This document shows positions 26,199-63,323 of a stretch of 64,000 bases of DNA, piece by piece; position 1 is the first letter of the stretch, and each line of letters begins with the position of its first letter. The DNA comes from Obelidium mucronatum (Eukaryota > Chytridiomycota > Chytridiomycetes > Chytridiales > Chytriomycetaceae), in the NCBI GenBank assembly GCA_025765595.1, contig JAIVFH010000009.1, positions 434,001 to 498,000 on the forward strand, written 5' to 3'. The notes under the pieces were generated by a model, which worked only from the letters and a program-made list of their open reading frames with translations, was not told where the DNA came from and ran no database searches. The position numbers and the translations under genes are program-made.

Positions 26199-28211
26199 AT
26201 GAACTACGGAAGCGCGTTGGCCGCAATGGTCGCAGTGTTTTTAGCGATCAGCGTGTCAGCTAGGAGCACTCTTGACCTCGGATCGCCGTGCTCAATGACA
26301 CCAGCAACGAAAGCCTGTTGGCCTCCAGTGCCGCAGCGATCTTCAGTGTATTCGCGGTCGTTGTGCTGCTCCGTTACTTCCCGGGGGAAGACTTCAGATC
26401 AGTCCAAACTTCAACTACGATTGCTCCAACTATGGATCGCCGTGCGTGGGCCAAGTCAACCCCACCATTCTGATGTGCGTCAGAATGCCAAACAACTCTA
26501 CAGGCCGTTGCATTAGCTCGGGACCAGGCATCGCCTTTGTTAACCAAGCTTGTGATAACATTGCGAATGTTTGTAGGTTTGGACTACGATGCATTAACTC
26601 CTATTGCCAAGGCAACTTTGTTGCTACGGGAAGTCCTTGTGATGTGCCACCATCCGGGGAAACGTTTATAAGTCGCTGCGAGGCTAGTGATACCTGTCTC
26701 TATCCCTCCTACGTCACGGCCGCCACTGACTTTTCCACGTATGAACCGTCGAGTGGGGTTTGTGTTCCCAGTGCGTTACCGCTTCCAATGCCGGTTCCAG
26801 CGGGATCCCCGCCATCTTGCGTCGAATGACGTGAATGGAGTTTGCCTTGGCCTCCAATTGTGTTTTTCACGGTTCAACGCGGTAGAACCCGTGTACAAGT
26901 GTGTTGGGACACCTGTTGCAAGTGAATGAAATGGTCCTCGCAACTGGGTCCCCGAAACGCAATCCCTTTCCATCCAGCAATGTAGGGACCGGACAAGTTT
27001 GCGATAATGTTCCGTATGCCATAAGTCGCTGTGGAGCCACCGACTTTTGTCTCTACACTGCTTCCAACAGCCAAAACAAGTCCGCTGTATGTACGCCTAT
27101 GTCAGCCAAAGGATCTCTCCCCCCTCAAATCACCAGTTTGGATTCCAGCAAGCCCACTTGTGTGCAAGATACTGGAAACGTGTGTCAAGGGTTCTGGATT
27201 TGTTACATTGGGAATAATGGAATGGAGCCGGTTTACTACTGTGATGGTGAAATCGACAACTCTAATGGGTTTTCAAACTATATTGGGTGGAATCATCCGC
27301 GCGAGGTTAAGTTGGTTGTGGGTGGGGTAAATACTACGGCCCCGTTAACTGGAGATGAGGGATCGCAAAATGTTGGGTTGATTGCTGGTATTGCTGTAGC
27401 AGCAGCTTTGATTCTTGCTGGTTTAGGATACTACTACTGGCGTTTGAAAGGCGGCAAGGACACAGACAGTATATCGGACGCTTCAAAACTTTCCCTCAAG
27501 TCAAGTAAAACGGTGGAATCTGCCTGTCCTCCAAATCAAACCGCGTCGAATCTTTATTCTGCTCACGCTTTGACCAGCCACGTCTTTCAAAAAGATGCGA
27601 CTGACGTGGAATCGTCAAACAACTCTACCGAGTATATTTCGGTATCATTCAACCAAAACCAGGAAGATTTGATTTCAACTGCTTCTCCGTCCAACCCAAA
27701 ATCCAACGCCGACCTTCCTGGCACTCCCACAACACCGGCAGCTCCGATTTCTGCCGTTTCTGCGGTTTCCATTTCTATCCCTTCAATTCCAATGCCGGGT
27801 GCTCCGGGTGCTCCTCCAAAATTATCGTCAGCAATTGGCACAACTCCCGCGCTTTCTCAAAACGAGCCGCCTGGAAACGCTCGCGCGTCAATGATTTCGA
27901 ATCCGACCGCTTCCACCACCGCTCGGTTGTCACTGATATCTTCTACTGGTAGTAGCGCGGTGGGTAGCGATACCTTAACTACCTCTACCGCCAACAACCC
28001 CAGATTCTCTGCCAACATCAACGTGCACTCTGTTCCAGGCTTCTACCGCTCGCTTCAAGACTATACTAGTGATGTGGATGGAGAATTGTCCTATACGGTG
28101 GATTCGCGTGTATACGTCACATCGAAGCCAGATGCGGAAGGATGGTGTAATGCGTTGATCGGATCTAGTGCGGGAAGAGTCCATTCGTCTTGTTTGGGAC
28201 CTATTGGGTGA
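26199..28211 (+). CDS. Cysteine-rich single-pass receptor with cytoplasmic SH3 domain, copy 1
   Basis: Type I membrane protein. The signal peptide (MNYGSALAAMVAVFLAISVS) is followed by a cysteine-rich ectodomain made of a 16-cysteine module plus a repeat of its last eight cysteines (ending NGMEPVYYCDGEID). Then come a membrane helix (GLIAGIAVAAALILAGLGYY), a Ser/Thr/Pro-rich cytoplasmic linker with runs such as PGAPGAPP, and an SH3 domain at the very end (VPGFYRSLQDYTS, VDSRVYVTSKPDAEGWCNAL). The SH3 lacks the usual second Trp and the PxxY ligand residues. Three one-base insertions interrupt the ectodomain frame at about 26312, 26826 and 26910; the nearly identical copy 2 shows where they are. 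No introns. Confidence 0.8.
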
Positions 28212-28414
28212 ACTTAAAGAATTAAAAGATACCACAGATATGCGAAATAGAGGGGGGGTCCGCTGTAAACAGTTTATAGATAAACTTCACCACATTTGAA
28301 TTATGAACGACACGGTCAAAATCACAAAGTAAGCTCTATTGTGGAAGATTGGTATTTGGCTACCACTTTGTTGACACTGTGCTTACGTCCAGTGTTGTAG
28401 AGATGAGAATTTAT

Positions 28415-28455
28415 GGGCTTGACGGGCTTGAATCAATTCACACAAAAAACAAGCC
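28415..28455 (+). promoter_or_regulatory. GGCTTGA promoter motif upstream of receptor copy 2
   Basis: Two GGGCTTGA words, at 28415-28422 and 28424-28431, followed by the same CAATTCACA/A-rich spacer as in copy 1 and an inverse CAAGCC near 28450. The ATG is at 28480, about 50 bases after the second word. The long match with copy 1 shows that the duplication included the promoter. Confidence 0.55.
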
Positions 28456-28479
28456 TCGTAACTCCACACTTCCAAAAGT

Positions 28480-30448
28480 ATGAACTACAGAAGCGCATTG
28501 ATCGCCATAGCAGCGTACTTTGTGATTAACGTGGCCGGAAGGAGCACTCTGGACCTCGGATCGCCGTGCTCAATGACTCCGGCAGCGAACCCTGTCGGCC
28601 TCCGGTGCCGCAGTGATCTTCAGTGTAAACGCGGTCGTTGTACTGTTCCGGAACCTCCAATTGTATTTGGAACCCCTTTTCCATCAGACTTCAGTTATGA
28701 CTGCACCAACTATGGATCGCTGTGTGTGGGCCAACCAGATCCCCTATTACTGGCAGTTGATGTGTGTCAGGATGCCAAACAACTCTACGGGTCGCTGCAT
28801 TCGTTCAGGACCAGGTATTTCACGTATAGGGCAACGTTGCGATGGCATTGCAAATGTTTGTGAGTTTGGACTGCAATGCGTTGAGTCCGTCTGCGAAGGC
28901 AACGCTGTTTCTATAGGAAGCGCTTGCAATGTACCACTATCCGAGGAAGCGCTGACAAGCCACTGTATGTCGGATGAAATTTGTCTCTTTCCCTCCTACA
29001 TCACTGCCGCTCTCGACTTTTCAACGAATGATTTTTTGAGTGGCGTTTGTGTTTCCAGCCCATCGACGCTTCCAGCGCAAGTTCCTCTCACAACATCCGC
29101 TCCATCATGCATTGACGATACGATTGGAATTTGTCTTGGTCTTCAACTATGCTTCGCTGGTGTCAATTCGGTGGAACCCCTGTACCGTTGTGTTGGACAC
29201 CTTTTGCAACTGAATGAGACGGTCGTTGCTATAGGTTACCCGAAACGTAATCAATTCCCATCAAGCATTGGTATTACGGGTCGAATTTGCGATAACGCTC
29301 CATTCACCATGGGTCGGTGCGGACCAAGCGACTTTTGTCTCTATCATGCTTCTAGTGCTCCAAACTTACCTGCAATATGTACGCGTTTACCAACCAAAGT
29401 ATCTCTTCCCCCTCAAATCACCAGTTTGGATTCCAGCAAGCCCACTTGTGTGCAAGATACCAGTAACTTGTGTAAAGGGTTCTGGATTTGTTACATTGGG
29501 AACAATGGAATAGAGCCGGTTTACTACTGTGATGGCGAAATTGACGATTCAAACGGATTTTCAAATTATATTGGGTGGAGTCATCTGCGCGAAGTTACCA
29601 AGTTGGTTGTGGATGGTGTGGCCAACAGTACGACGCCTCGTCTGAATTCAGTGGAAGATGGGGGGCCGCAAAATGTTGGGTTGATTGCGGGTATTTCTGT
29701 AGCAGCAGCTTTGATTCTTGCTGTGTTAGGATACTGCTTCTACTACCGGTTGAACGTCGGCAAAAATCCTTACAATTCATCAGATGGAACGTCAATTATC
29801 TCCCTCAAGTCAAGCAAAACAGTAGATTCTGTGCATAAACCAAATCAATCTGTGTCGAATCTTCCTCCTTCTTACGCCTTTAACGATGCCTTTCAATACG
29901 ACACAATCGAGGGATCCGTTAAATCTAATGAGTATCTTTCGAATCCAGAATCATTGAATCACCACAACACAGATGCTGTTGCATCTTCTTCTTGGACTCC
30001 AAATGCCAATACTGACTACAGTCTCCTACTTACCCCCACAGCACCGAAAGCTCCAGCTTCTTTCATTTCAATCCCTTCAATCCCAACAACTCTATTCTCC
30101 ACTGGCGGTGACAGTGGCGCAGCTAGCGATACCACCACAACCACAACCGCGTCTACCAATATCCCCAAATTCTCTGCCAACACCAACGTGCACTCTGTTC
30201 CAGGCTTCTACCGCTCGCTTCAAGACTATACAAGTAATATCCATGGGGAGTTATCGTATACGGTGGATTCGCGTGTATATGTCACATCAAAGCCAGATGC
30301 GGAAGGGTGGTGTCATGCGTTGATTGGAGCAAGTGCTGGAAGAGTCCATTCGTCCTGTTTGGGGACCTATTGGATAAACTTGAAGAAGAAATCGAAATAT
30401 AACAGATGTGCCATAGAGAGGGGAATCGTGTGGATTCCTTGTTTATAA
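28480..30448 (+). CDS. Cysteine-rich single-pass receptor with cytoplasmic SH3 domain, copy 2
   Basis: Tandem duplicate of copy 1 with the same parts: signal peptide (MNYRSALIAIAAYFVINVAG), 16-cysteine module, eight-cysteine half-module, membrane helix (GLIAGISVAAALILAVLGYC), Ser/Pro-rich linker and C-terminal SH3. One extra base near 28760 shifts the frame before MCVRMPNNSTGRC. Another extra G at about 30362 removes the normal end (copies 1, 3 and 4 all end GPIG) and lets the frame run on for about 28 more residues to 30448. If this G is an error, the true stop is near 30375. No introns. Ligand and partner unknown. Confidence 0.8.
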
Positions 30449-30923
30449 ATACAAAAAAGAGAAATGTCAATTAAAAGGTACTTTTAATAAGCTGCGATAT
30501 GATATTTGTTAATATTACTCATCCTTGGTTTCATTCTGTAATAAAATTATCAGAGACTGTTGTCAGGGTGACGAGTGAGAATGCACGATGGACTGGTTCC
30601 TTTCCAGAGTGCTCCGTCGAAGTTGCATGTGAATGTCTTAAATTGAGGTGGAGAGCAGTGCTCATGTGTCCCCCTTGCGGTTTTCTCTGCGGTTTCAAGA
30701 ATAGGGTGGTTCTCTTTATCATTCCTAGGATGCAGGATGAATAAACCAACTTCCAATTGTAGATTTAAAAAAAATCAACAGCTATATATAATTTTTCTAT
30801 TTGGAAGAGAGAAAACTTGTCTAAGATAGTTTCCAAACAAAATTCGTTCATAACACACCATACAACATCCTTCCAAAATCATCCCAACAAAAAAAAGTAA
30901 AAAAAGGACAAAAAAAAATACAT
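30449..30923. other. Intergenic between converging receptor genes
   Basis: About 475 AT-rich bases at the tail-to-tail junction of copies 2 and 3. Short open frames here have no coding character. Runs of A near 30890-30920 mark the 3' end of copy 3. No repeat or RNA gene seen. Confidence 0.5.
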
Positions 30924-32636
30924 CTAACCAATCGGACCCAACTTGGAGTCATGAACGAGGCCATAACTCCCAGCAATCAAAGCATGACACCAGCCCTCAA
31001 CATCTGGCTTGGAAGTAACGTACACCCTTGCATCTTTGGGATATGACAATTCATCCTCAATTTCGCTTCTAAATTCCTCCAATGTGCGATAAAATCCTGG
31101 CACTGATTGAACATTCCATGTTGCTTCCTTCGGCTTTTCGAACCGTGAGTTTCTTATAGCGGATTCAATGCCGCTGGGCGACAACGGAGCAGAAACCACG
31201 GAATCTCGAATACCCGTAGTGGCTGAGGTGGTCACGCTGGGTGGTGGTGGTTCTAGCATATGGAGAGAAATCGACGCGTCAAACGCTTTCTCGTCGATGA
31301 TACTTCCTGCAACCGCTGTGGTAGAATCGAAATTTTTCAGGTTGGCTCGTTTCTTTGCCAATATACTGATGGTGAGACCGATTCCGGCGGCCAAGAGGAC
31401 ACCAACAGCAACTCCGGCAATCATGCCAACATCGGGTCCACTGGATTGGCTCGATGTGCTTGCTGATTCATTGATAGTAGAAGGAGTGGTGCTGAGGACT
31501 CCAAACACAGTACCAAACGGATTATGCCAAGCGATAAAGTTGGGAGATCCTTTGGAGTAGTCGATTTGACCATCGCAGTAATACACCGATTCGAATCCAT
31601 TGTTTCCGATAAAGCAAATCCAGAGTCCGCTGCACGTTTCTCTGGTGTTTGAGTCTGGAATACATGATGGATTGTTGCTGTTTGTGCTTGTCACTTTTGG
31701 TGGTAGATTCGCTGGCCTCTTTGTGCAAACTGCAGGAGCCGTTTGGTTGGCTGGGGCTGGTGGATATAAGCAAATATCACCTGCGGCACAACGGCCGACC
31801 GCTTCGGGGAAGTTATCACAAACACCTCCCGTAGAGACAGTTGGAACGGTAAAGTTTGAAGTTCCCACGTTAATGTTATCAGTGATATTCAGCTCGTTGT
31901 TTGTTTGAATCAAGCTGCCATCGCAAGCAAACAAGCCTTCTACACTGGTTTCTTGTAAATAACAGAGCCCTAACCCGAGACAGATTCCTGAGGGGTCCGG
32001 GATGCATGATCGGATCGTTAGTGGAACCTTTGGTGGCCTTGGGGCACATTTGGAATAGGCGACTGTTGGGTTACTTGCAATAGTTAGGATTTTCCGAGCA
32101 CTACCAAGAGTTGGGCTAGTTGACGTTACTGCAGCCACAAGACAGATATCGGTTGTTTTGCAGACAGTCAAGATTCCAGCAACGGTTGAGTTACAGATAC
32201 TGCCCGTTTCAACCACTTTTCCGCGACACACCCCAGCGATACACTGCAGCCCCTTCTGACAAACGTTTAAAATATTGTCACACCTTTGATTGATGGAGGC
32301 AATTCCATCTCCTGACGCAATGCAGCGGCCAAAATCATCCGTTGGGTTCTTGACACACATGAGCGTAGAGGGGGTCCCTTGATCAATACAGGGACTGGCA
32401 AAGTTTGAGCAAGTCGATGAAAAGTTTGGGCCCGGCGGAGTACTGGGTTCGACTACTGCTGGCACCATGACACAATAGCCGTCCTTGCAAGTTAGGAGCG
32501 GGTTTCCACATTGCCATCCCTTTCCAGTGTTTGAACATGAAGAGGCATACTCGAGGACACTACGTGCCATAGCAGCTTGAATCCCACACTGAGCTAAAAG
32601 TGCAACAAGGCACAGCGGCAACGTGTCTGGCTTCAT
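30924..32636 (-). CDS. Cysteine-rich single-pass receptor with cytoplasmic SH3 domain, copy 3
   Basis: Intact single-exon gene of 570 codons, the best reference for the family. Signal peptide about 1-24 (ending in AAMARS), then four extra cysteines (SSCSNTGKGWQCGNP), a 16-cysteine module from STCSNFASPC to GLFACDG, an eight-cysteine half-module from GGVCDNFPEAVGRC to SVYYCDG, a membrane helix at about 400-424 (GMIAGVAVGVLLAAGIGLTI) with a basic stop-transfer, a linker with EPPPPSV, and the SH3 domain at about 505-570 (VPGFYRTLEEF, DELSYPKDARVYVTSKP). The SH3 ends GLVHDSKLGPIG where most SH3 domains have a PxxY pocket. Likely a surface receptor or adhesin coupled to cytoplasmic partners; the function is inferred. 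Confidence 0.88.
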   Translation of the reverse strand: MKPDTLPLCLVALLAQCGIQAAMARSVLEYASSCSNTGKGWQCGNPLLTCKDGYCVMVPAVVEPSTPPGPNFSSTCSNFASPCIDQGTPSTLMCVKNPTDDFGRCIASGDGIASINQRCDNILNVCQKGLQCIAGVCRGKVVETGSICNSTVAGILTVCKTTDICLVAAVTSTSPTLGSARKILTIASNPTVAYSKCAPRPPKVPLTIRSCIPDPSGICLGLGLCYLQETSVEGLFACDGSLIQTNNELNITDNINVGTSNFTVPTVSTGGVCDNFPEAVGRCAAGDICLYPPAPANQTAPAVCTKRPANLPPKVTSTNSNNPSCIPDSNTRETCSGLWICFIGNNGFESVYYCDGQIDYSKGSPNFIAWHNPFGTVFGVLSTTPSTINESASTSSQSSGPDVGMIAGVAVGVLLAAGIGLTISILAKKRANLKNFDSTTAVAGSIIDEKAFDASISLHMLEPPPPSVTTSATTGIRDSVVSAPLSPSGIESAIRNSRFEKPKEATWNVQSVPGFYRTLEEFRSEIEDELSYPKDARVYVTSKPDVEGWCHALIAGSYGLVHDSKLGPIG

Positions 32637-32666
32637 CCCAATTCAAAGCAGGAAATTTTTTTAATA

Positions 32667-32686
32667 GGTCAAGCCTGGGTCAAGCC
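32667..32686 (-). promoter_or_regulatory. Direct repeat GGCTTGACC upstream of receptor copy 3
   Basis: On the minus strand GGCTTGACC occurs twice with a two-base spacer, about 30 bases before the start of copy 3. It matches the paired GGCTTGA words of copies 1 and 2, although these promoters are otherwise diverged. Confidence 0.55.
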
Positions 32687-32831
32687 ATGGAGGATTTGCA
32701 AAATATTCCAATTTACTTTGCATTTAACACTCCACAAAAAAAAATTAGCAAGAACCATAACAAGAACAAGAACACCAACAAATATAGCTCTAATAAAAGG
32801 AGGGGAATCTTTAACCAACACGTCCGCCCCA

Positions 32832-32970
32832 ATTTCCCAGCAACGAGAGCACCCATTGACAAAACATACATGTGAAAATCCTTTTTGAATAACAGCGCAT
32901 CTTCTGTTGATCTAATGTGTTCAGCTGTAGAACCCAGGAATGAAAATGACATTGCAGACGCATTGTCACT
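32832..32970 (-). pseudogene. Decayed SH3-domain fragment (relic A)
   Basis: Minus-strand text reads STEDALLFKKDFHMYV, matching the SH3 segment EDELSYPKDARVYVTS of the receptors. It is closest to the relic at 35.4 kb (STEDELPFKKDSHIYF), and the DNA match extends about 130 bases. No membrane helix or ectodomain remains. It lies just upstream of copy 3, between the two minus-strand receptors. Confidence 0.6.
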
Positions 32971-33193
32971 TTTAGATTGTTTTTTTTGATGAGATGACAA
33001 AAGAAGACAAAATCGAAAATCAAAAGCAGGAACTTTTGTAACCAACGGGTTGCCAACGGGTCAGTGTCGTAAATCTCTTAAAAATATCAAGAGAAGTCAC
33101 AGTTTTAAATGTTCCAGAGTCTATCAAAGTCCAACCGCCTTATCTTTTTACCCTAGATTTGGTAGGGCTCAACGATTGCATTTGGTGCTACTC

Positions 33194-33216
33194 AAAAAAA
33201 AAAAAAAAAAAAAAAA
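33194..33216. repeat. Poly-A run of about 23
   Basis: A run of about 23 A between receptor copies 3 and 4. The length in an assembly is unreliable. It could be a retroposition tail or simple slippage; nothing adjacent supports an element. Confidence 0.7.
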
Positions 33217-33373
33217 GAACGTTCCAAATTAGAAACAGCTGCTGGATATTGAACTACTCGATTTATTAAAAGAGAATCCATCTCTTTATGATACTCTCTA
33301 AATTGACCATAGAACATGCTTACCCAGCAAAAAACCGTCAAAGAAAAAAAAGAGTGCCTTCTCTGATCAAAAT

Positions 33374-35023
33374 CTAACCAATAGGCCCCATTTTGGAATC
33401 ATGAACAAGTCCATAGCTCCCAGAAATCAAAGCATGACACCACCCCTCCGCATCTGGCTTAGACGTAACATACACCCTCGCATCTTTGGGATACGATAAT
33501 TCGTCCTCATTATCACTTTTGAATTCCTCCAAAGTGCGATAAAATCCTGGCACTGATTGAACGTTCCGTGCAACCTCTTTTGGTTTTTCGAAACGAGGTT
33601 TCACAACAACGGATTCGCTAGGTGGCAAGGGAATGGAATCTTGACTTGTTCCGAGCGCGCTGGTTGCAGTGGTGGTGGCAGCGTATGTAGGAGACATTGA
33701 AGAATCAAAAGGTTTTTCGTCGCCAACGGTGGCGGCAGCCGATACGGAATTGTTTAGGCTGGATCGCTTCTTTTTCGAATACAGCACACCGCCGATAACG
33801 AGTCCGATAATCACGAGGGCGCCAACGGCAATACCTGCAATCATGCCCGTGTTAGAAGTCCTGGATCCGTCAGAATTAGTTGACGATTCAATTGTAGTGG
33901 AAGTGTTGCTGACGCCAAACACGGCACCAAATGGATTATGCCACGCAATAAAGTTGGGAGATCCTTTCGAGTAGTCGATTTGACCATCGCAGTAGTACAC
34001 CGATTCGAAGCCATTGTTTCCAATAAAACAGATCCAGAGTCCGCTGCACGTTTCTCTGGTGCTTGAGTCTGGAATACATGATGGGTTGCTGCTGTTGGTG
34101 CTTGTCACTTTTGGTGGTAGATTTACTGGTCGCTTTGTACACACTGCAGGAGCCGTTTGGTTGGCTGGGGCAGGCGGGTACAAGCAAATATCATCTGTAC
34201 CACAACGACCAATCCCTTCAGGGAATTTGTCGCAAACAATTCCCGTAGATACAGTTGGAACGGTAAAGTTTGACGTTCTCACGTTGATGTTTCCAGTTAC
34301 ATTAAGCTCGTTGTTTGTTTGAATCAGGTTGCCATCACAATAGTACAACACTTCGACACTGGTTTTTTCAACAAAACAAAACCCTAATCCAAGACAGATT
34401 CCTGATGGGTCTGGGATACATGAGCGGGATTGTGGGACTTTGGGTGGCATTGGGGCACATTTTGCGTATGTTGGAGTTGGGTCGCTTCCAAGAGTTGGAC
34501 TGGTTGTCGTACCTGCAGCCACAAGACAGATATCGGTTGTTTTGCAGACAGTCAAGATTCCAGCAACGGTTGAGTTACAGATACTGCCCGTTTCAACCAC
34601 TTTTCCGCGACATACCCCAGCAATACACTGCAGCCCTTTCTGACAGACATTCTCGACGTTGTCGCACCTTTGATCAATGGAGGCGATTCCAGTGCCTGAT
34701 GCAATGCAGCGGCCGATACCGTCAGCAGGGTTCTTAACGCACATGAGTGTTGCTGGAGTTCCTTGGTCGAGACAGGGACTGGCAAAGTTCGAGCAAGTCG
34801 AAGAAAAGCTTGGTCCTCGCGGGGTAGTTGGTTCGACTATTGCTGGCAACATGACACAGTAGCCGTCTTTGCATGTGAGAAGTGGGTTTCCGCATTGCCA
34901 ACCCTTTCCAGTCGGTGAACAGGACGAGGCATACTCGAGGACACTGCGTGCCATCACCGCTTGCATGCCACATAGAGCGACAAGTGCGACAAGGTGCAGC
35001 GGCATAGTGTCTTGTAACTTCAT
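33374..35023 (-). CDS. Cysteine-rich single-pass receptor with cytoplasmic SH3 domain, copy 4
   Basis: Intact single-exon gene of 549 codons, a close duplicate of copy 3. Signal peptide (LHLVALVALCGMQAVMARS), N-terminal SSCSPTGKGWQCGNP, the 16-cysteine module (STCSNFASPCLDQG to EVLYYCDG), the half-module (IVCDKFPEGIGRC to SVYYCDG), a membrane helix at about 390-412 (GMIAGIAVGALVIIGLVIGG), KKKRS stop-transfer, a short linker, and the SH3 domain ending SYGLVHDSKMGPIG. The linker is the fastest-changing part between copies; ectodomain and SH3 are well kept, which suggests selection on both ends. The start follows a TTCAAGCC (GGCTTGAA on the minus strand) by 25 bases. Confidence 0.88.
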   Translation of the reverse strand: MKLQDTMPLHLVALVALCGMQAVMARSVLEYASSCSPTGKGWQCGNPLLTCKDGYCVMLPAIVEPTTPRGPSFSSTCSNFASPCLDQGTPATLMCVKNPADGIGRCIASGTGIASIDQRCDNVENVCQKGLQCIAGVCRGKVVETGSICNSTVAGILTVCKTTDICLVAAGTTTSPTLGSDPTPTYAKCAPMPPKVPQSRSCIPDPSGICLGLGFCFVEKTSVEVLYYCDGNLIQTNNELNVTGNINVRTSNFTVPTVSTGIVCDKFPEGIGRCGTDDICLYPPAPANQTAPAVCTKRPVNLPPKVTSTNSSNPSCIPDSSTRETCSGLWICFIGNNGFESVYYCDGQIDYSKGSPNFIAWHNPFGAVFGVSNTSTTIESSTNSDGSRTSNTGMIAGIAVGALVIIGLVIGGVLYSKKKRSSLNNSVSAAATVGDEKPFDSSMSPTYAATTTATSALGTSQDSIPLPPSESVVVKPRFEKPKEVARNVQSVPGFYRTLEEFKSDNEDELSYPKDARVYVTSKPDAEGWCHALISGSYGLVHDSKMGPIG

Positions 35024-35047
35024 CCAAAAAAAGACAAAATTTATTTG

Positions 35048-35055
35048 TTCAAGCC
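35048..35055 (-). promoter_or_regulatory. Single GGCTTGAA motif upstream of receptor copy 4
   Basis: Read on the minus strand, GGCTTGAA lies 25 bases before the ATG of copy 4. Only one word is seen here, against two in the other three copies. Confidence 0.45.
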
Positions 35056-35139
35056 AGAGGTGGACCAGAGTTCTGAAAATTTTCCAATTTACTTTAACTC
35101 CGACACAACAAAGGAAACATGAGCCAATAGGTTAGGTCT

Positions 35140-35230
35140 GAGCTAAGTGAGCTTAGAGGGATGGATGTACAATCCTCGAGCTCCCGGCAACAAGCACTGT
35201 GACACCAAACCGTCCCCTCATCTTTATGGA
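35140..35230 (-). pseudogene. Decayed SH3 tail (relic C)
   Basis: On the minus strand, TGGTGTCACAGTGCT followed one frame over by LVAGSSRIVHPSL resembles the receptor SH3 end GWCHALIAGSYGLVHDSKL. One frame change is needed. It lies just upstream of copy 4 and probably is the end of another lost copy. Confidence 0.45.
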
Positions 35231-35337
35231 TTCGAAAATCTTTTTACACCATTTTTTAATGAGATGACTATATAAAGACTATATAACGATAACGATGAAA
35301 ACTTAAAAGAAAAGACGAAAGTAAAAAAAAGTTTTTT

Positions 35338-35500
35338 TCATCCAAGAATGCAATATCCCCGAGTAAGCGCATGACACCAACCGTCTCCATCCCGAAAATA
35401 TATGTGGGAATCCTTTTTGAACGGCAATTCGTCTTCTGTTGATGCACTGTGCTCCTCCAGGGAATGGTTTCTCGAACAGAAGTGACATCGCTGACGCGTT
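35338..35500 (-). pseudogene. Decayed SH3-domain fragment (relic B)
   Basis: The minus-strand frame reads STEDELPFKKDSHIYF then DGDGWCHALTRGYCILG and a stop, matching the receptor SH3 region DELSYPKDARVYV...EGWCHALISGSYG. Signal peptide, ectodomain and membrane helix are absent. Its upstream DNA also matches relic A, so both derive from one older duplication. Confidence 0.65.
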
Positions 35501-35596
35501 TGAATGCTCTCGCGTTGTTTGACATGCCTTACGCCGGTTCGCGTTATCCGATTCGGGATGTGGTACAATGACGGGGGTGGTGCCTCGCTGGTCTCA

Positions 35597-53964: not shown

Positions 53965-54387
53965 ATGACCACTCAACTTCCACCACATTTGGCGAGCTCC
54001 CGCAACGGTGCCAGCAACGATCCCCCCACAAAGATCGCAGCTTCAGAGATCATCTTCTACAGCAACCTGCAGTCCACGGATAAGATCCATTTCCTGAACT
54101 CGCAAGCGTACATGACATTGGAGGAACAAGTGACCCAGGTTGCCATGCAAGAATGGCTCCGTGACACCTTCATTGCCGTGCATGCGCCAAGCAGTGTTGC
54201 AGCTGGTATTTCAGCTGTCGAGGTGGATAGTTGGGATAGTGCATCAGGAGGGTGGTCAATCTCTCACAAAACCCGCGAGTTTCAGTCCGATGGTACTGGA
54301 TTGATGGTCGCTAAGGTCGAAGTCTCTTATCGTGATCAACTGGTTCGAGTTCGCATTCACCGTGGTGCAAACTGTACCGCAATGTGA
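53965..54387 (+). CDS. Hypothetical protein, 140 residues
   Basis: Single open frame starting MTTQLPPHLASSRNGASNDP with no signal peptide. The rest (EEQVTQVAMQEWLRDTFIA, WSISHKTREFQSDGTGLMV, VEVSYRDQLVRVRIHRG) looks like one compact mixed alpha/beta domain. I recognise no family. About 100 bases upstream of the carboxypeptidase gene on the same strand. Confidence 0.55.
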   Translation: MTTQLPPHLASSRNGASNDPPTKIAASEIIFYSNLQSTDKIHFLNSQAYMTLEEQVTQVAMQEWLRDTFIAVHAPSSVAAGISAVEVDSWDSASGGWSISHKTREFQSDGTGLMVAKVEVSYRDQLVRVRIHRGANCTAM

Positions 54388-54486
54388 AAACGGACTTGCG
54401 GAAAAGTATGAATACATGAAGTAACGACTGGAATTCCGAATGTATCTGGTTAAAGCCACTCAGGCTGTAGAAAATAAAATTAAAAA

Positions 54487-55588
54487 ATGAGCTTACCGGA
54501 ACAAACCCCACTCCTTCCGAAAGATGCTCTGGTTGAGCCTCCGCGCTATAAAAGGTACCATTGGTCTTAATTTAATAGTTAGATTGATTGAACATTATCC
54601 GGTCCCTTCTGGTCTCGTAGATTTAGTGTCATTCAGTGGCTCTGCATTGCAATCGTTCTTGTTTTTGGATCCATCGGACTCCTCGGATTGAGCTCCAGAG
54701 AGTCGAATGTTTCCGATAGTGGTAAAGATTGGATTCAAGAGGTCTGAATGTGATTGGCGCTAACTCCGGTTCCGATAGGAAAGGAATACTATCTCGTCAA
54801 GAACCTTCCTCGTGAAACCCCAGAGATCACGGCTTCTTTGAATGACCACTATGCGGGTTATATTCCTGTGGTATCTTTGACCCTTGGCTCCTATCAGACT
54901 CGGCTTACATGATAAATGATACACAAACAGACCGAATTTGGCCATCTCTTCTTTTGGTATTTTCCCACCGTCAATAAGACGTCAGATGAGTTAGTCATCT
55001 GGATTAACGGAGGACCGTAAGTGTATTCCTTTTTGGCTTGGCAATAATGCGACTAACATGAAGGGATTTGACTTGACCAATTGGCTTCAAAGGGGATGGT
55101 GCGAAAAATACTGGTTTTCCCATTAGCTTGCCACTGAACCCGTTTTTTTCTTCATATTATTGTAGCTCTTCCTTGATTGGGCAGTTCACAGAGAACGGGC
55201 CATTTTATGTTGCCGATGATGGTTCACTGATGGTAAACCCAAACAGTTGGCATAAGCGCGCAAATGTCCTCTACGGTAAATTTGAGAATATGCCTGTGTT
55301 TCTCGTTTGTTTTTTTTGAGAATTTACCCACTCACCTGTTTCAGTTGACCAGCCTATTGGAGCTGGCTTCTCCTTCACAAAACCAAAAACAGGGCCCCAC
55401 AATGAATACGAAGTTGGCGAGCAATTTTACACATTTCTTAAGCAATGGTACGCGATATTTCCGGAATCCCAAAAGTGGAAGTTGTTTATCACTGGCGAGA
55501 GTTATGCGGGAGTTTATGTTCCCTGGATTGGGAAGTATATTATTGAACATCCTGTACTTCCTTCCGGCCAGAAGGTTTTGTGTTTCAT

Positions 55589-55626
<38 letters not shown>

Positions 55627-56582
55627 TTTACTCTTGGAAATCAACAGATCAATTTGAAGGCTCTTGGTGTTGGAAACCCAGTCCTCTCATACAAATACCA
55701 ATTCGACATTGTCAGTTCCTTTGACTACCTCAAGACCGTTAAATTCTTTGGGCATGATACTGACGCATTGGGGCAAGCTGCAGAACTCACTGAACGCTGT
55801 CGATACGCGACCGACAAGAACAATTCCGCGTTACCATATCAATGCAACATGTACGAGTACGCAAACGAATGGAAAGTGCGCACGTCTGGAATAAAATGTC
55901 TGGATCGTTTGAATTACAAGAAGGAGTGTGTTCCGGATGATTTGATTGGTGGGCCTGGGTTGAGTGTGTATCTTGATGTATGTTTTTTTTTTCTTTTTAC
56001 ATTTGAGAGTATTTGGGGGGGGGGGGGGGGGGGGGGGGGTGGTAGACTTTAAAAACACATGGAATTTCTTGAAAACACTGAAATAATAGGATCCAAAAGT
56101 TCGACAAGCAATCCATGTGGACCCATTGCAACTCGAAAACGGCGGGCACATCAAATGGAAGGCATGCGACGAGCGCATGGACAACCTCGACGATACCAAG
56201 TTACCTGAACCCATCAAAATCATTCCAGGAATCATCAAGAGTGGTGTCAAGTATTTGGTATACGAAGGAGATCTTGATGTGTCCATCAATTTCGTTGGCA
56301 CAGAGAGAGGTATCGGAAATATGACTTGGGGGTCTGGCAAGAAGAAGTCTCCAGGGTTTGAAGGACAATTGAAGGAATATTTTGTCGATGGCGTTGCGGC
56401 TGGGAGATTCATTACAGAACGTGGAATGTCGTACGTTCGTGTTTACGATGCGGGCCATATGGTTTGTAAACATTTTTTTTATATATTCTGATTATGAATC
56501 GCTCAGCTGCGCTCTTTTATAGGTTCCTACCGATCAGCCGCGTCGCGGAAGTGATGTCTTGGAGAAGATTCTTGGGCAGTAA
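54487..56582 (+). CDS. Serine carboxypeptidase (S10), membrane-anchored
   Basis: Type II membrane protein: the cytosolic tail (MSLPEQTPLLPKDALVEPPR) precedes a helix (VIQWLCIAIVLVFGSIGLLG), as in Kex1-like or vacuolar peptidases sorted through the Golgi. The S10 catalytic triad is visible: Ser in LFITGESYAGVYVP, Asp in VYEGDLDVSINFVG, His in VYDAGHMVPTDQPR. The oxyanion region reads WINGGPSSSLIG. Many small introns; one (about 55575-55646) holds about 36 T and another (about 55980-56087) about 25 G, both likely unstable. Ends VLEKILGQ at 56582. It removes C-terminal residues at acidic pH. Confidence 0.87.
55590..55625. repeat. Intronic poly-T run of about 36
   Basis: Homopolymer within a carboxypeptidase intron, near the 3' splice side. 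True length is uncertain because such runs are poorly read. Confidence 0.8.
56015..56039. repeat. Intronic poly-G run of about 25
   Basis: Rare long G run on the coding strand of a carboxypeptidase intron; capable of G-quadruplex formation in DNA or pre-mRNA. Length uncertain. Confidence 0.8.
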
Positions 56583-56755
56583 ATTCGTTTTTTTTCACGG
56601 AAAAAAAAACGAAAATGAGTTGCTTTTCTGTCGAATTTAAACTCGTGAATTTATAACAAGTGATGGAGAAAGTTGGGCATTTGGGTGATTCAGTAAAGTT
56701 GTTTTTCAAGGATGATTTTTTCTGTCCCGAAAATTCCCGAACGCCTCTAGCCATC

Positions 56756-58384
56756 ATGTTTGTGTTTAAAGCATCATCCATGCTGAGTCGATCAAAAGCT
56801 GCTGCTAGATCACAGGTATTTTAATTTCGAGGAGCTATAACTGTCCATAAAAACGGGCGCTCGGCTATTGTACCTCATTCTGTTGACTTCCGGCTGGCGC
56901 CACATCGACTGGCGGGCAGCCTTTGCCCCGCCACTCTATCGAACATCGAAACCACCAACACGCTAACACTGCTTATTTCAGTCGATCCGATTCTTTGCGG
57001 CTGCCTCAGGAAACCCGCCTCCCGCTGAAGGATTTATGGCCGGCGTTGCCACGTCAAAGTTTATCAAATCTACAAAAGAGCAGTGTTTGAGTCATCTAGA
57101 ACTAGCGGCTGTGCGAAACTGTAAGTTGGGAGGATGTATGATTTTCTGGTTGTGATGTTATTCTTCCCTGGCTACGCGATCTAAAAACTTGACACAAAAA
57201 ACAACATCAACAACAACCAACAAAACTCTCACTCATCGAACAAAAAACTACAGCGGAAACTGTGAAAATGAACTACTTTACGGCTGTGAATGATGCCCTC
57301 GCGACTGCATTAGCAACCGACGAAAAAGCCGTGATTTTTGGAGAGGATGTTGGATTCGGAGGAGTCTTTCGATGTACTATTGGATTGGCAGAAAAGTTTG
57401 GTTTGTACCCTGCATGCTCATCCCCCAGAATAATATGCCATGTTTAGCTCATTGCACGCAAATTTCCAGGAAAAGACAGAGTCTTCAACATGCCATTAAC
57501 CGAGCAAGGAATCATTGGTTTCGGGATCGGAATGGCAGCCGTCGGACATACACCGATCGCTGAAATCCAATTCGCTGATTACGTGTTCCCCGCCTTTGAC
57601 CAAATCGTAAACGAAGCCGCCAAATACCGATACAGAAGCGGGAACGAATTCAACGTTGGTGGATTAACGATCCGTATGCCTTGTAACGCTGTCGGCCACG
57701 GCGCCTTGTACCACAGTCAATCGCCTGAGGCGTATTTCGCACACACACCTGGATTGAAAATCGTGTACCCACGAAGCCCGATTCAAGCCAAAGGGTTCTT
57801 GCTTGCGGCGATTCGGGACCCGAATCCAGTGTTGGTGATGGAGCCCAAGATTTTGTATCGAAGTGCGGTTGAGCAGGTTCCAGTGGATGATTATGTGCTT
57901 CCGTTGGGAAAGGCAGAGGTTGTGAAGGAGGGTAAAGATTTGACGGTTGTTGGATGGGGTGCACAGTTGTATGTTTTGGAGAATGCGGTGCAAGAGGCGG
58001 AGAAGAGGATGCCTGGACTCAGTGTGGAGATTATCGATTTGAGGTCCATTTTGCCATGGGATAGAGAGACTGTGGAAAAGGTAATGTATTCAATATTTTT
58101 CACTGCTGTTTCAAGAATAGCCAGATTTAATTTTTTTTATTATTGAATTGATCCAGTCTGTCAACAAAACTGGTCGATTGTTGATTGCTCACGAAGCCCC
58201 ACACACTGGCGGGTTTGGAGGGGAAATTGCCGCGACCATCCAGGAACGCTGCTTTTTGAAACTCGAAGCCCCTATTTCCAGAGTTTGCGGCTGGGACACA
58301 CCATTCCCGCTTGTGTTTGAGAAATTCTACATTCCTGGAATGATTAGGTGCATGGATGAAATTGAAAAAGTCATGAATTATTGA
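56756..58384 (+). CDS. BCKDHB: Branched-chain 2-oxoacid dehydrogenase E1 beta subunit, mitochondrial
   Basis: Beta subunit of the thiamine-dependent E1 of the complex that decarboxylates 2-oxoacids from Leu, Ile and Val. A presequence spread over short exons ([25 protein letters not shown]) precedes [115 protein letters not shown] and [19 protein letters not shown]. Two Met codons, at 56756 and 56780, could start it. Introns near 56816-56981, 57121-57251, 57403-57470 and 58081-58155. Together with GCDH it shows mitochondrial amino-acid breakdown. Confidence 0.93.
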
Positions 58385-58459
58385 GAGAACACAAGCGAAA
58401 TAAAATGCAGTATTACTGGATCATGATGAACCCACAGCTGTAAAGCTATATTTAAATTG

Positions 58460-58870
58460 GTTGCCAATGCAGTACGACCACACCAATCTCCAAATCGAGA
58501 CTCTTCGCCAAGCTGCTTTGGATGTAATCAATGTCATTGTCTACCGCAAACTACCGCGCCTCCCTCCCCAATCTACTCTGACGATCCACTTGAACGTCCA
58601 TCCAACAAGGATGCTCTCTTTATCATCAAATGCGTTTCTCGAGAAGCCTTGGATATTGCAACTTATTCGCTAGAAGATGACAAAACGTTGTTGTGAACAT
58701 CTACGGATTATCGTTTTTCAAACATATTTCTACTTTTCTTGAAGAACGCGTCCTTGCCCATACATGCGGAATTTTGAATGAGCTGACTCTTTGTAACAGT
58801 CTTACCGCCTGTGGCCGTTTTGACGAGTTGAAAAAAACAACTCAAGAGTTGTGAGATGCAAAGCCATGAA
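58460..58870 (+). pseudogene. F-box gene relic 1
   Basis: Text IETLRQAALDVINVIVYRKL and LPRLPPQSTLTIHLNVHP match the N-terminus of the F-box gene at 18.7 kb. From about 58690 the DNA instead matches its C-terminal part (ATCTACGGATTATCGTTT, then CTTGAAGAACGCGT and onward past 58840). The middle, with the F-box, is deleted, and frames are broken. Non-functional. Confidence 0.7.
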
Positions 58871-59147
58871 AAGTGTTTTGATTCTTGTGAAGTATCTGAT
58901 TTTGGTCACAAACCACCAGCCTGAAAAAACCAAAGGCAGTGTCTTAGTGATTACTCCAGATTGGAGGAAATAGGATGGAAGATATCCCGTAGTAAGGAAA
59001 CTGAAATTGGTGTGGCGGCTTAAATAAAAAGAAAGGTTTCCGAGGGTTCATTCAACATAGTTACGACCAAATGCACTCAATAGAGTTACCATCGGTCACT
59101 AACAGGGATCCACATGATTTATTGCTTAGACGAGGAAGGGTATTTAG

Positions 59148-59300
59148 AGAAGATCAAAGAGTCGAAAATGTCTGTGTTCTAGTTCCCAATGAGTAGACAG
59201 AATTGACTAGAACAAAGTATGCCAGTGAGCTGGGTGATGTCAAAATGGATTTGAATATCTACGGATTATCGTTTGTCGGTAGTTTTCTTAAACATTGCAC
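59148..59300 (+). pseudogene. F-box gene relic 2
   Basis: A 140-base stretch reading GTATTTAGAGAAG...AAAGTATG...GGTGATGTCAAAATGGATTTG (in three blocks) matches the F-box gene segment coding YLEKLKESKVSV through NIYGLSFVG, with an internal deletion and stops. It is a second, separate fragment on the + strand just behind relic 1. Confidence 0.65.
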
Positions 59301-59398
59301 AAACAAGTTTGAAAAGAGAATGCGCGAAATGAATAGCTGTTTATTTACTCTTGTTGATCATTGATGCATCATTGATGGGTGAGTGTTTAAGTTATCTT

Positions 59399-60286
59399 CT
59401 ACCGCTGAACAACAGTTTTTGGTGGCTTGGCAGCATTCGCTTTGGCGACAGTGTCCGCAACATGCACAGCAACTTGATGAGCGGCATCCGCAGCATTTGA
59501 AGCGGCTTGTGCAATTTCTTTGACTGCCGCCGCCACATCCCCCGCAACGACTTTCCCGGCATCAGTAACGCCCGCGCCAATGGACAACAGGCCGCCGGCG
59601 ACATCGCCGCCCGCAATGTCCGAGACGCCCGCGGCGACATCGGCGGCGTCGTCAATGACTTGCGGCGCGTGCTGGATAGGCAGCGGCGCGTTCGGGTACT
59701 TGGCGGTAACCTTCCGGGCGGCGTCCGCGGCGACGGGCAGCAGCACGGCGACGGCGTCGGCGGACGCGGCCACGGCCTTGGCGGGCGCGGCGGCGTCGCC
59801 GTTCGTGGCGGCGGCGACTGCCTGGGCGGCGGCGGCGGCGTCGGCGGCGAGGCGCGGCAGCGCAGCGTCCAGCGAGCCCTTTTCTGCGGGCTTGCCGGCG
59901 CGCGCGCGGTCGCTCGCAGCCACGACGGCGCGCGCCACGTCCGGAACAACGACGGCGCCGACGCCCGCCGCGCCCTGCGCGAGCGCCACGCTGCCCTGCG
60001 CCACGCCCGCGGCGCCCAGCGGGTTGCCCATCGACAGCGCCGCCGCCCCGCCCGCGATCGCGAGCGCGCCTTGCACGAGCTTGGGCGTCTGCGCGAGGAT
60101 CTGCGGCGCGTCGCCGAGGATGTTGCCGCCGGCGATCACAGCGGCGTCGAGCGCGACTTGGCCTGCTTGCACTGCGTCGGAGACCGCGTCGGAGACCGCG
60201 TCTACTGGAACTTGCAGAGGTGGCAGTGGGGCGCAGAGTACTGAGGCTAGGGCGGAGAGCGCAAGGAGGGCTTTAATCATCATCAT
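59399..60286 (-). CDS. Secreted alanine-rich protein in a GC-rich island
   Basis: Start at 60286 gives MMMIKALLALSALASVLCAP, a clear signal peptide. The mature protein of about 275 residues is made mostly of Ala, Val, Asp and Gly in amphipathic segments (DAVSDAVSDAVQAGQVALDA, AAVKEIAQAASNAADAAHQV) and has no cysteine. It may form helical bundles at the cell surface. GC content from about 59550 to 60240 is much higher than in any neighbour, with GC-biased third positions, while the last 150 bases and the signal region are normal. No family recognised. Confidence 0.7.
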   Translation of the reverse strand: MMMIKALLALSALASVLCAPLPPLQVPVDAVSDAVSDAVQAGQVALDAAVIAGGNILGDAPQILAQTPKLVQGALAIAGGAAALSMGNPLGAAGVAQGSVALAQGAAGVGAVVVPDVARAVVAASDRARAGKPAEKGSLDAALPRLAADAAAAAQAVAAATNGDAAAPAKAVAASADAVAVLLPVAADAARKVTAKYPNAPLPIQHAPQVIDDAADVAAGVSDIAGGDVAGGLLSIGAGVTDAGKVVAGDVAAAVKEIAQAASNAADAAHQVAVHVADTVAKANAAKPPKTVVQR

Positions 60287-60667
60287 TATTAAACTGTCTT
60301 GCTCTTTTTTTTCAAATGAGTGCTTGCCTTTTGTATAGCTTTTGAGTTTAATTAAACAAGAAGGGTTCAAGGTTTATCCGCTCCAAAATTAAATAGAATT
60401 AGATTTTTTTCATTGTGCTTTTTAATTGGTTTATACTATAAGCGGAAAAATGAGTAAAGATTTTTAAACAGAAAAAATTTCATATACTTTGTTGAAAATT
60501 TTTCAAATTGAATGAAAACGAAAAAATGTAATTCATTAACATTTTTCAAGACACTTGTTTGGGACAAATAAAAAGTAATTAATTTCAAGAAGGCTGTTAT
60601 AAATAGCCGTGAATCATTTTTTTTGCAACGAAAAATTAACAACAACATTATACATTATCACATCCCA
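60287..60667. promoter_or_regulatory. AT-rich divergent promoter
   Basis: About 380 very AT-rich bases between the alanine-rich gene (-) and the cysteine-rich secreted gene (+). A TATAAATAG word lies near 60598-60606, about 65 bases before the + start, and is a TATA-box candidate. No gene seen. Confidence 0.45.
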
Positions 60668-61339
60668 ATGTTGTCTCAAGCCTGTCTCGTTGTGCTTACG
60701 TTGACACTGTCTGCAGTGTGTGCTCCTGTCTCCAACACCAAATCTGAAAGCACTACTACAGCATCTACATTTACTGTCACAGCTGCATCCACATCTATTA
60801 CCACTGCATCACCCACACCGTCAAACCCTAAAATCGGCGACCCATGCCCCATCGTTGGCGACATTTGCGGCATCACAAACGATTCCACAATTCTCTGGTG
60901 TGGCGACTCTACAGGATCCGCACAAACAGACATCACCATCGGCACGACATCCCCATCCATCACTGGCCAATGCGGTGCAGCAGCCGGCCCCAACCAACCG
61001 TGCTCCGCAGGCACATCCGTATGCTACCCAGGAATGACATGCAACCCTAAAACAGCGAAATGCGACCCGCCCGTCAATCCCATCGGTGGCCTCTGCAACG
61101 CGCAGTGGAAATTTGATTTCCATGTCTGCGACTCGACAGTCGCTGTTTGTGCCAATGTGAATCCTAAATCAGAGAGTAATCTGTGCATTGAGCGGCCTGA
61201 GGTGTTGCCGAGTGTGCCTGGGGAATGTGTGTCTGTTGAAAAGAGTTGTGGTGGGAAGGTGGGAGCAGTGCTTTGTTTTGGTGCGGTTCCGACACGTGGG
61301 AATGGGTTGTCGGAGGCTTCTTATTATTGCAAGTTTTGA
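60668..61339 (+). CDS. Secreted 16-cysteine protein
   Basis: Signal peptide (MLSQACLVVLTLTLSAVCAP), a Ser/Thr-rich stretch likely O-glycosylated, and then exactly 16 cysteines: in DPC, DIC, LWC, GQC, QPC, SVC, MTC, AKC, GLC, HVC, AVC, NLC, GEC, KSC, VLC and YYC. Order and spacing match the first module of the SH3 receptors at 26-35 kb, including landmarks VCYPGMTC (receptor VCQKGLQC), an RP-x-LP stretch and the end EASYYC (receptor ESVYYC). Likely a secreted cell-surface or wall protein. Its 3' part is repeated three times downstream. Function unknown. Confidence 0.8.
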   Translation: MLSQACLVVLTLTLSAVCAPVSNTKSESTTTASTFTVTAASTSITTASPTPSNPKIGDPCPIVGDICGITNDSTILWCGDSTGSAQTDITIGTTSPSITGQCGAAAGPNQPCSAGTSVCYPGMTCNPKTAKCDPPVNPIGGLCNAQWKFDFHVCDSTVAVCANVNPKSESNLCIERPEVLPSVPGECVSVEKSCGGKVGAVLCFGAVPTRGNGLSEASYYCKF

Positions 61340-61420
61340 AAAAGTACTTTTGTAGTATTATGTAGTATATAAAAAAAAACTAGGCTTTCTATAACGTGTT
61401 TTTATTCTATAATGCACGAA

Positions 61421-61700
61421 ATGCGACCCGCCCATCAATCCCATCGGTGGACTCTGCAACGCGCAGTGGAAATTTGATTTCCATGTCTGCGACTCGACAG
61501 TCGCTGTTTGTGCCAATGTGAATCCCAAATCAGAGAGTAATCTGTGCATTGAGCGGCCCAATGTGTTGCCGAGTGTCACTGGCGAATGCGTGTCTGTTGA
61601 AAAGAGTTGTGGTGGGAAGGTGGGTGCGGTGCTTTGTTTTGGTGCGGTCCCGACACGTGGGAATGGGTTGTCGGAGGCTTCTTATTATTGCAAGTTTTGA
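61421..61700 (+). pseudogene. Headless copy of the half-module (unit 2)
   Basis: Open from about CDPPINPIGGLCN to SEASYYCKF and stop at 61700. It lacks start codon, signal peptide and the first eight cysteines. It could only be expressed by splicing from an upstream exon. Confidence 0.65.
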
Positions 61701-61780
61701 AAAGTACTTTTGTAGTATGATGTATAGTATATATAAAAAAACTAGGCTTTCTATAACAAGTTTTTATTCTATAATTCACG

Positions 61781-62062
61781 AAATGCGACAATCCCATCAA
61801 TCCCATCGGTGGACTCTGCAACGCGCAGTGGAAATTTGATTTCCATGTCTGCGACTCGACAGTCGCTGTTTGTGCCAATGTGAATCCCAAATCAGAGAGT
61901 AATCTGTGCATTGAGCGGCCCAATGTGTTGCCGAGTGTCACTGGCGAATGCGTGTCTGTTGAAAAGAGTTGTGGTGGGAAGGTGGGAGCGGTGCTTTGTT
62001 TTGGTGCGGTTCCGACACGTGGGAATGGGTTGTCGGAGGCTTCTTATTATTGCAAGTTTTGA
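61781..62062 (+). pseudogene. Headless copy of the half-module (unit 3)
   Basis: Nearly identical to unit 2, with a small deletion at the left edge. Open through SEASYYCKF to the stop at 62062. No start or signal peptide. Confidence 0.65.
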
Positions 62063-62145
62063 AAAAGTACTTTTGTGGTATTATGTATAGTATATAAAAA
62101 AAAACTAGGAATTTCTATAACGTGTTTTTATTCTATAATGCGCGA

Positions 62146-62426
62146 AATGCGATAATCCCATCGGTGGCCTCTGCAACGCGTAGTGGAAATTTGATTTCCA
62201 TGTCTGCGACTCGACAGTCGCTGTTTGTGCCAATGTGAATCCCAAATCAGAGAGTAATCTGTGCATTGAGCGGCCTAATGTGTTGCCGAGTGTCACTGGC
62301 GAATGCGTGGGGGGCGGGTCTGTTGAAAAGAGTTGTGGTGGGAAGGAGGGTGCAGTGCTTTGTTTTGGTGCGGTTCCGACACGTGGGAATGGGTTGTCGG
62401 AGGATTCTTATAATTGCAAGTTTTGA
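62146..62426 (+). pseudogene. Headless, decaying copy of the half-module (unit 4)
   Basis: Left edge shortened, an in-frame stop where other units code NAQW, a nine-base insertion giving extra glycines after GECV, and YYC changed to YNC at the end. Clearly non-functional as it stands. Confidence 0.65.
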
Positions 62427-62537
62427 AAAGTAGTTTTGTAGCATAAACATATTATATAAAAACCTATAAAAACAAGTATCTATAACGTGTTTTTATTCTA
62501 TAAAAAAAACCGACTTTGTATTAAATACTACACTGAA

Positions 62538-63323
62538 TCAAAACGCAAACAGCAGAGCCGCAAAGAGCAAAGCGGCAAGCGGAACAAAACTGCTGCTGCC
62601 GCTCTTTGCCGTGGTAACCGGAGCACTTGTTTTGGCGGTGGCAGTGGCGGGTGCCACGCTTGCGACTTCGGCGGCCGCCGCGGCAACGGCGGCCAGATCG
62701 ACGGACTTAGTGACGTTGGGGCCCTGGGCCGACGTGCCAGGAGTCCGGCAGAAGAAGGCGGCCTCGGACAGCGAGTTGTTTGGCGCGGGGGCGGCGCTGA
62801 AGCAGAACGGCGCGCCGCGACACACGGCGGCGCGCGTCGGGTCGGCGACGCAGAAGGCCGCGCCGTTCGCCGTCGGCAGCGGCGCAGCGCCGGGCGCCAC
62901 GTCGGCGCACGCGTTTGATTCCTTCGTCGGGTCTAAGTTGACGCACGCGGCGCCCAAGGGGCACACGTGGAAGTTGAACTGCCACTGCGCGTTGCACGTG
63001 CCGCCGATCGCACTGACCGGCGGATCGCAGCGCCCGGACACGCACCGCATCCCCGGGTAGCACACTGCTACCCCGCCGGCGCACGCGGCGTACGGCCCGG
63101 CCGCGAGTCCGCATGTTCCCGCGGTTGGTGCTGCGGCAGTGGCAGTGGTGGCAGTGGCTGCTGCGGCATTGGCGGATCCAGTGCTGTCGCCGCACCATAG
63201 CACAGTGTTGTTCTGGATCCCACACAGCTTGCCAACTCCTGAGCAAGTGTCTCCAATGTTGATGACTCGTGGTGGTGGTGCAAGAGTCGCTGTAGCAGCA
63301 GCTGCAAGCGTCGTTGTTGCCAT
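62538..63323 (-). CDS. 16-cysteine surface protein with probable GPI-anchor signal, GC-rich
   Basis: Paralog of the secreted gene at 60.7 kb, on the other strand, with the same 16 cysteines (from GDTC, KLC, LWCGDSTGSA to SEAAFFC) and landmarks VCYPGMRC and IGGTCNAQWQFNFHVC. After the module comes an Ala/Thr-rich stalk and a C-terminal hydrophobic tail (FVPLAALLFAALLFAF) with preceding small residues, as for GPI attachment. From the start at 63323 (MATTTLAAAATATLAPPP) the signal peptide is weak. About 62620-63200 is strongly GC-rich, unlike its paralog, so codon use has diverged greatly while the protein is kept. Confidence 0.75.
   Translation of the reverse strand: MATTTLAAAATATLAPPPRVINIGDTCSGVGKLCGIQNNTVLWCGDSTGSANAAAATATTATAAAPTAGTCGLAAGPYAACAGGVAVCYPGMRCVSGRCDPPVSAIGGTCNAQWQFNFHVCPLGAACVNLDPTKESNACADVAPGAAPLPTANGAAFCVADPTRAAVCRGAPFCFSAAPAPNNSLSEAAFFCRTPGTSAQGPNVTKSVDLAAVAAAAAEVASVAPATATAKTSAPVTTAKSGSSSFVPLAALLFAALLFAF

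Follow-up and report, generated by a model that had tools for sequence, protein, structure and literature searches.

To our knowledge, little is understood of the means by which flagellated fungi perceive surfaces and their own wall, and a locus of the chytrid Obelidium mucronatum raises the question of whether one cysteine-rich extracellular module is used on both receptor-like and secreted proteins, and for what. We analyzed a stretch of 64,000 nucleotides (hereafter the window) that forms part of contig C9 in a genome assembly of 48.3 Mb and 694 contigs. The genes concerned and their parts are as follows.

26199..28211, plus strand: R1, a frame-broken TM-SH3 receptor-like gene, with an in-frame module piece at 26416-26826
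26886-28208, plus strand: piece of R1 that contains the second B repeat and the SH3
28480..30448, plus strand: R2, a frame-broken TM-SH3 receptor-like gene, with an in-frame module piece at 28757-29200
30924..32636, minus strand: R3, an intact TM-SH3 receptor-like gene (570 aa), with the 16-cysteine module at 31911-32420
~31569-31841, minus strand: second B repeat of R3
33374..35023, minus strand: R4, an intact TM-SH3 receptor-like gene (549 aa), with the 16-cysteine module at 34325-34804
~34856-34921, minus strand: 4-cysteine mini-unit of R4
~33983-34253, minus strand: second B repeat of R4
~33785-33841, minus strand: TM of R4
~33395-33544, minus strand: SH3 of R4
60668..61339, plus strand: S1, a soluble, secreted-looking protein (223 aa), with the module at 60836-61336
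61413..61700, plus strand: truncated copy 1 of the S1 3' half
61775..62062, plus strand: truncated copy 2 of the S1 3' half
62142..62426, plus strand: truncated copy 3 of the S1 3' half, with an internal stop
62538..63323, minus strand: S2, a GPI-type protein (261 aa), with the module at 62736-63257
62541-62597, minus strand: terminal hydrophobic tail of S2

The four SH3 receptor genes are arranged as two convergent pairs, with R1 and R2 on the plus strand and R3 and R4 on the minus strand. About 25 kb beyond them, S1 (plus) and S2 (minus) lie tail to tail with the three truncated S1 copies between them. When the reading frames were compared by eye, R1 could not be followed in one open frame, differing from R2 by three or more frame changes, and R2 had at least one frame change, leaving two of the four receptors (R3 and R4) intact. 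These breaks may reflect gene decay or an assembly error. The deposited protein P0002 represents the later part of R3 only and starts inside the ectodomain.

A sequence-only reading of the window had counted exactly 16 cysteines in both secreted proteins and aligned them one-to-one with the first cysteine block of all four receptors. The count holds for S2; S1 has 18 cysteines, two of which lie in its hydrophobic N-terminus, with 16 following. The first block contains 16 cysteines each in R3, R4 and P0003, a receptor from Siphonaria; R1 and R2 are frame-broken, and Cys14 of S1 is out of register with that of S2 (gaps of 6,8 vs 9,5). Spacing between the cysteines is similar across the two groups: the gaps are 6,9,26,9,6,5,4,10,10,5,11,18,9,5,17 in S2 and 6,10,10,13,6,5,4,10,10,5,22,12,7,5,12 in R4, so that 9 of 15 agree within one residue, a match equalled by 172 of 100,000 permutations of the S2 gaps. 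Over the six pairs of S1 or S2 with R3, R4 or P0003, between 156 and 6,622 permutations per 100,000 equalled the match, the weakest pair being S1 and P0003 (7 of 15 gaps; 6,622 permutations). The non-cysteine landmarks that had been proposed fared unevenly. The motif V-C-x2-G-[ILMF]-x-C, searched as codons in both strands of the 64 kb, gave six matches, one per gene, against 0.11 in shuffles. The others are missing or variable in members: P0003 and R1 lack G-x2-C-N, exact copies of RP-x-LP are limited to S1 and the second repeats of R3 and R4, and E-x2-YYC varies (EGLFAC in R3, EAAFFC in S2).

Profile and pairwise comparisons carried the question further. An hhalign comparison of the secreted profile with the receptor-module profile (five rows each) gave a probability of 94 over 141 columns, with a P value of 1.5e-7 for that single comparison. 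Both kinds of carrier are present in Siphonaria, the receptor P0003 and the secreted kind P0006 and P0007, and within that genus BLASTP matched P0006 to P0003 at an E value of 3e-7 and P0007 to P0003 at 3e-6. S2 matches P0006 at 55% over 194 columns and P0007 at 49% over 232 columns, and the receptor modules are 23-30% identical to S2. With modules as targets and five-row HMMs, the secreted HMM scored R4 at 19.0 bits, R3 at 18.5, P0003 at 16.7, the R2 piece at 20.4 and the R1 piece at 7.0, values that were equalled by 0, 1, 0, 0 and 11 of 1,000 cysteine-preserving shuffles, respectively. In the reverse direction, the receptor HMM scored S2 at 16.8 bits, P0006 at 18.8 and P0007 at 17.5, each equalled by 0 of 1,000 shuffles, and S1 and its copy on contig C227 at 3.0 and 1.3 bits, equalled by 16 and 39 of 1,000. 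Earlier, smaller profiles were weaker, with S2 at 9.7 and S1 at 1.0 bits (12 and 56 of 1,000 shuffles). A tree of block B, that is, of part B (Cys9-16) in our division of the module, in which part A is Cys1-8, separated four secreted rows from nine receptor rows (99/97); P3_B1, R2_B1 and S1_B have long branches and the internal order is unsure. Sixteen ordered cysteines together with non-cysteine similarity were thus found across the two groups, by spacing only for Cys1-4 and weakly for S1, which on these scores is a weak member of the module family. Together, the comparisons show, at the level of sequence, one homologous 16-cysteine extracellular module in O. mucronatum and Siphonaria sp. JEL0065 on both kinds of carrier, and to this extent the sequence-only proposal of one domain shared by secreted or GPI-type and receptor-like proteins was borne out in two chytrid genera.

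The signal is unevenly distributed along the module. We tested it by cysteine block with three receptor rows and five secreted rows, leaving out the partial R1 and R2 rows. Most of it is held by Cys5-12, where the receptor scores were equalled by 0 (R4), 1 (R3) and 23 (P0003) of 1,000 shuffles and those on the secreted side by 5 (S2), 50 (S1), 4 (P0006), 1 (P0007) and 59 (S1 copy). Cys13-16 follow the pattern C-[IV]-x-D-P ... C-x-G-x2-[FL]-C-F ... [FY]-C; the shuffles that equalled this block numbered 13 for R4, 66 for R3 and 3 for P0003, and 0 for S2, 2 for P0006 and 1 for P0007, against 911 for S1 and 946 for its copy. Cys1-4 showed no signal beyond spacing (at best 69 of 1,000 shuffles, mostly hundreds).

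A module HMM of one group had also been expected to recover the other group above background. This held with modules as targets, but with whole proteins recovery was weak and not specific. The secreted HMM scored whole R3, R4 and P0003 at 3.3, -0.6 and -5.3 bits and a GPI-type protein of the same genome, L057b, at 22.0 bits. The low receptor scores arise because the composition correction removes 45-50 bits; without the null2 correction, R4 (49.1), R3 (48.9) and P0003 (39.8) exceed L057b (34.4 bits). Among 852 ORFs, a set in which the other C227 copies and the window members were kept and 23 loci repeating window genes or C227 copies were excluded from the decoys, ORFs of the loci L057 and L058 scored equal to or above the opposite group in both directions. 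The proteins of these loci, encoded in gene arrays on contigs C247 and C1, have the Cys5-12 core in common with the module, with similar gaps. The profile of this core family aligned with the secreted group at a probability of 85.5 and with the receptors at 50.6, over 45 columns each. A genome search from one core-family protein gave further matches, including S2 at an E value of 0.0027; some are GPI-type proteins made of 4-cysteine units, and others comprise a frame of 154 aa and a Ser/Thr-rich one of 1,014 aa. The latter open frame (L074:2959-6003) has repeated 4-cysteine units of the same general kind. Judged by eye, the GPI-type cysteine proteins L057/L058, L076 and L077 have a C-terminal hydrophobic end, as the GPI-type module proteins do, but they are shorter, are made of 4-cysteine units and are alignable over 45 columns only; L077 matches the L057/L058 group and neither module profile. 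The 16-cysteine layout is best seen as a putative longer member, shared by the receptors and the S2-type proteins, of a wider Cys5-12 stock.

The view that no described family has this pattern was upheld in our searches: no Pfam family passed its cut-off on the module, no PDB sequence matched it, and no paper describing it was among the literature matches listed. The nearest named similarity was to the EB module (PF01683), which is likewise cysteine-rich, but at a best E value of 0.079 and scores of 10.6 and 11.2 bits it lies below the curated cut-off of 24.3. Structure models were poor, built from alignments of 7 and 6 rows: mean pLDDT was 48.6 for S2, with fair values confined to residues ~21-50 and ~71-100, and 32.5 for R4, and neither model yielded a usable fold match. 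No Pfam match to CFEM was found in the module proteins at E <=1 (one search, E <=10). CFEM is a fungal 8-cysteine module, and PMC9318983 describes its use on secreted and GPI-anchored proteins as well as on membrane proteins (Pth11, 7-TM). The likeness lies in one fungal cysteine-rich extracellular module being spread across secreted, GPI-anchored and membrane carriers, and the difference in eight cysteines vs the 16 found here and in a membrane carrier that here is of the TM-SH3 type. Both the module and the SH3-bearing carrier look new, whereas the mode of use, one cysteine-rich module on soluble, GPI-anchored and membrane receptor proteins, is already known from CFEM.

The receptors are built in the order 4-cysteine mini-unit, 16-cysteine module, second part B, one strong hydrophobic (TM) stretch, variable linker and C-terminal SH3-like domain. 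The second part B scored 46.0 bits in R3, 47.7 in R4, 57.6 in P0003 and 34.9 in the R2 piece. Two of the five SH3 regions, those of R4 (22.3) and P0003 (23.8), passed the SH3_2 cut-off of 21.8, and those of R3 (16.2), R1 (17.2) and R2 (16.1) fell below it. Yeast Fus1 and similar surface proteins have one TM and a C-terminal SH3; they resemble R1-R4 in this layout, and differ in that R1-R4 have a large cysteine-rich ectodomain.

At E <=0.001, R4 had 33 matches in its own genome, 7 in this cluster and 26 elsewhere, and all 26 of the latter were confined to query residues >=368. Several of these 26 loci are haplotig pairs (92-96%), so the gene number is lower than 26. All ten ORFs examined from TM-SH3 loci had an SH3-family match in Pfam (E <=0.1). 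The ectodomain of P0003 as a query gave six matches in the O. mucronatum genome at E <=10, every one of them in this cluster. For PAN_1 (cut-off 21.4), the ORF at locus L016 passed with 24.0, that at L024 fell below with 20.2 and that at L021 had weaker PAN hits; the other TM-SH3 ORFs scanned against Pfam had no named ectodomain within the scanned frame. Loci L016-L038 appear as a TM-SH3 family with differing ectodomains, PAN-type in L016 and probably in L024, the others unnamed, and they lie in small clusters on C19/C206, C55/C209 and C69/C228. That other ectodomains precede this TM-SH3 end points to a layout of receptors that merits a survey across chytrids. One could go further and speculate that chytrids of this group have a receptor system in which a standard TM-SH3 end is joined to interchangeable ectodomains (16-cysteine, PAN-type and others), at least one of which has soluble and GPI counterparts presenting its ligand, relaying it or competing for it, SH3 being used where plants use kinases; we consider this system as a whole rather improbable.

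Simple pairwise dN/dS estimates over short stretches gave, for R4 vs R3, 0.07 in part A, 0.19 in part B, 0.11 in the second B, 0.06 in the SH3 and 0.35 in the stalk and TM surroundings. For R1 vs R2 they gave 0.34 over the comparable piece and 0.17 in the SH3, despite the broken frames. The low values for R4 vs R3 suggest strong purifying selection, which speaks against a fast-diversifying recognition role.

From sequence alone, homotypic recognition, a decoy-receptor pair or a wall-binding domain had been suggested as the function of the module. Our tentative preference is for a module that binds the surface or the wall matrix and is borne by TM-SH3, GPI-type and soluble carriers in a CFEM-like way without being CFEM; it would fit best because the cysteine core recurs in other predicted GPI-type proteins of this genome and because strong purifying selection acts on the module of the receptors. 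The module would be disulfide-rich and would bind a conserved target at the surface, most likely the wall or extracellular matrix of the cell itself. Its soluble and GPI forms would reside in the wall, those of the TM-SH3 type would monitor the matrix or hold to it, and the receptor SH3 would couple matrix contact to cortical partners. Fungal wall sensors and yeast Fus1 are somewhat comparable. The module might instead bind an outside substrate, such as chitin or other surface polymers where the chytrid settles, and so serve in attachment and sensing; this would agree with the surface carriers, the conservation of the module and the PAN domain on other TM-SH3 proteins. However, no carbohydrate-binding family matched, CBM_1 having no match in the module proteins and none of its four genome matches above the cut-off, and we regard this reading as unlikely. 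A more basic doubt is whether the two groups share anything but generic 4-cysteine units, having been built separately, with the 16-to-16 match partly a coincidence. The GPI-type proteins with the Cys5-12 core do score as high as the opposite group, Cys1-4 carry no non-cysteine signal and S1 is weak throughout, but the profile alignment spans 141 columns, the receptors outscore the core family without composition correction, and Cys13-16 have a signal of their own in S2, P0006 and P0007 (0, 2 and 1 of 1,000 shuffles); we give this reading little chance.

The remaining alternatives concern partners among the module proteins themselves. GPI and soluble forms could act as ligands, co-receptors or decoys, binding the ligand of the TM-SH3 receptors, presenting it or competing for it, and the presence of the module on all three carrier types (soluble, GPI-type and receptor) within the window, like the occurrence of receptor and GPI-type forms in Siphonaria, would suit such a system. 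Yet the two groups lie ~25 kb apart and are distant in sequence (the 23-30% identity to S2), and the block-B tree keeps the secreted group separate from the receptors, which argues against a recent receptor-derived decoy; we think such a system unlikely. A module might also bind its counterparts, whether on a second cell or in the matrix. Such homotypic adhesion would account for a module on membrane and secreted carriers alike and for the repeated part B of the receptors, but the strong conservation between R3 and R4, with no sign of allotype diversification, speaks against it, and we consider it quite improbable. The module on SH3-tailed receptor-like, GPI-type and soluble proteins provides a small, expressible candidate set.

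Anchoring differs within the secreted group. In S1 the N-terminus is hydrophobic and there is no GPI-type tail, and terminal hydrophobic tails of the GPI kind, assigned by hydropathy and by eye, are present in S2, P0006 and P0007. A clear signal peptide was not seen at the modelled starts of S2, P0006 and P0007; an upstream exon is likely for the S2-type gene, and a search for that exon found none. Contig C227 has a 94% collinear copy of the region (locus L059 vs window positions 54719-64000) with S1 and S2 and without the three truncated copies, and this copy most likely represents the other haplotype. Pairs at 92-98% occur elsewhere too, which suggests an assembly that holds two haplotypes separate. 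The truncated tandem copies at 61413-62426, each made of the S1 3' half and 3' flank, are probably a recent polymorphic expansion because they are missing from C227. Adjoining S1, an Ala-rich secreted-looking protein is encoded at 59399-60373 on the minus strand, in a stretch that is present on C227 too. Upstream of S2, positions 63494-63888 contain two sets of three 28-30-nt repeats that alternate, and part of this repeat stretch matches C134 and C12 at 79%.
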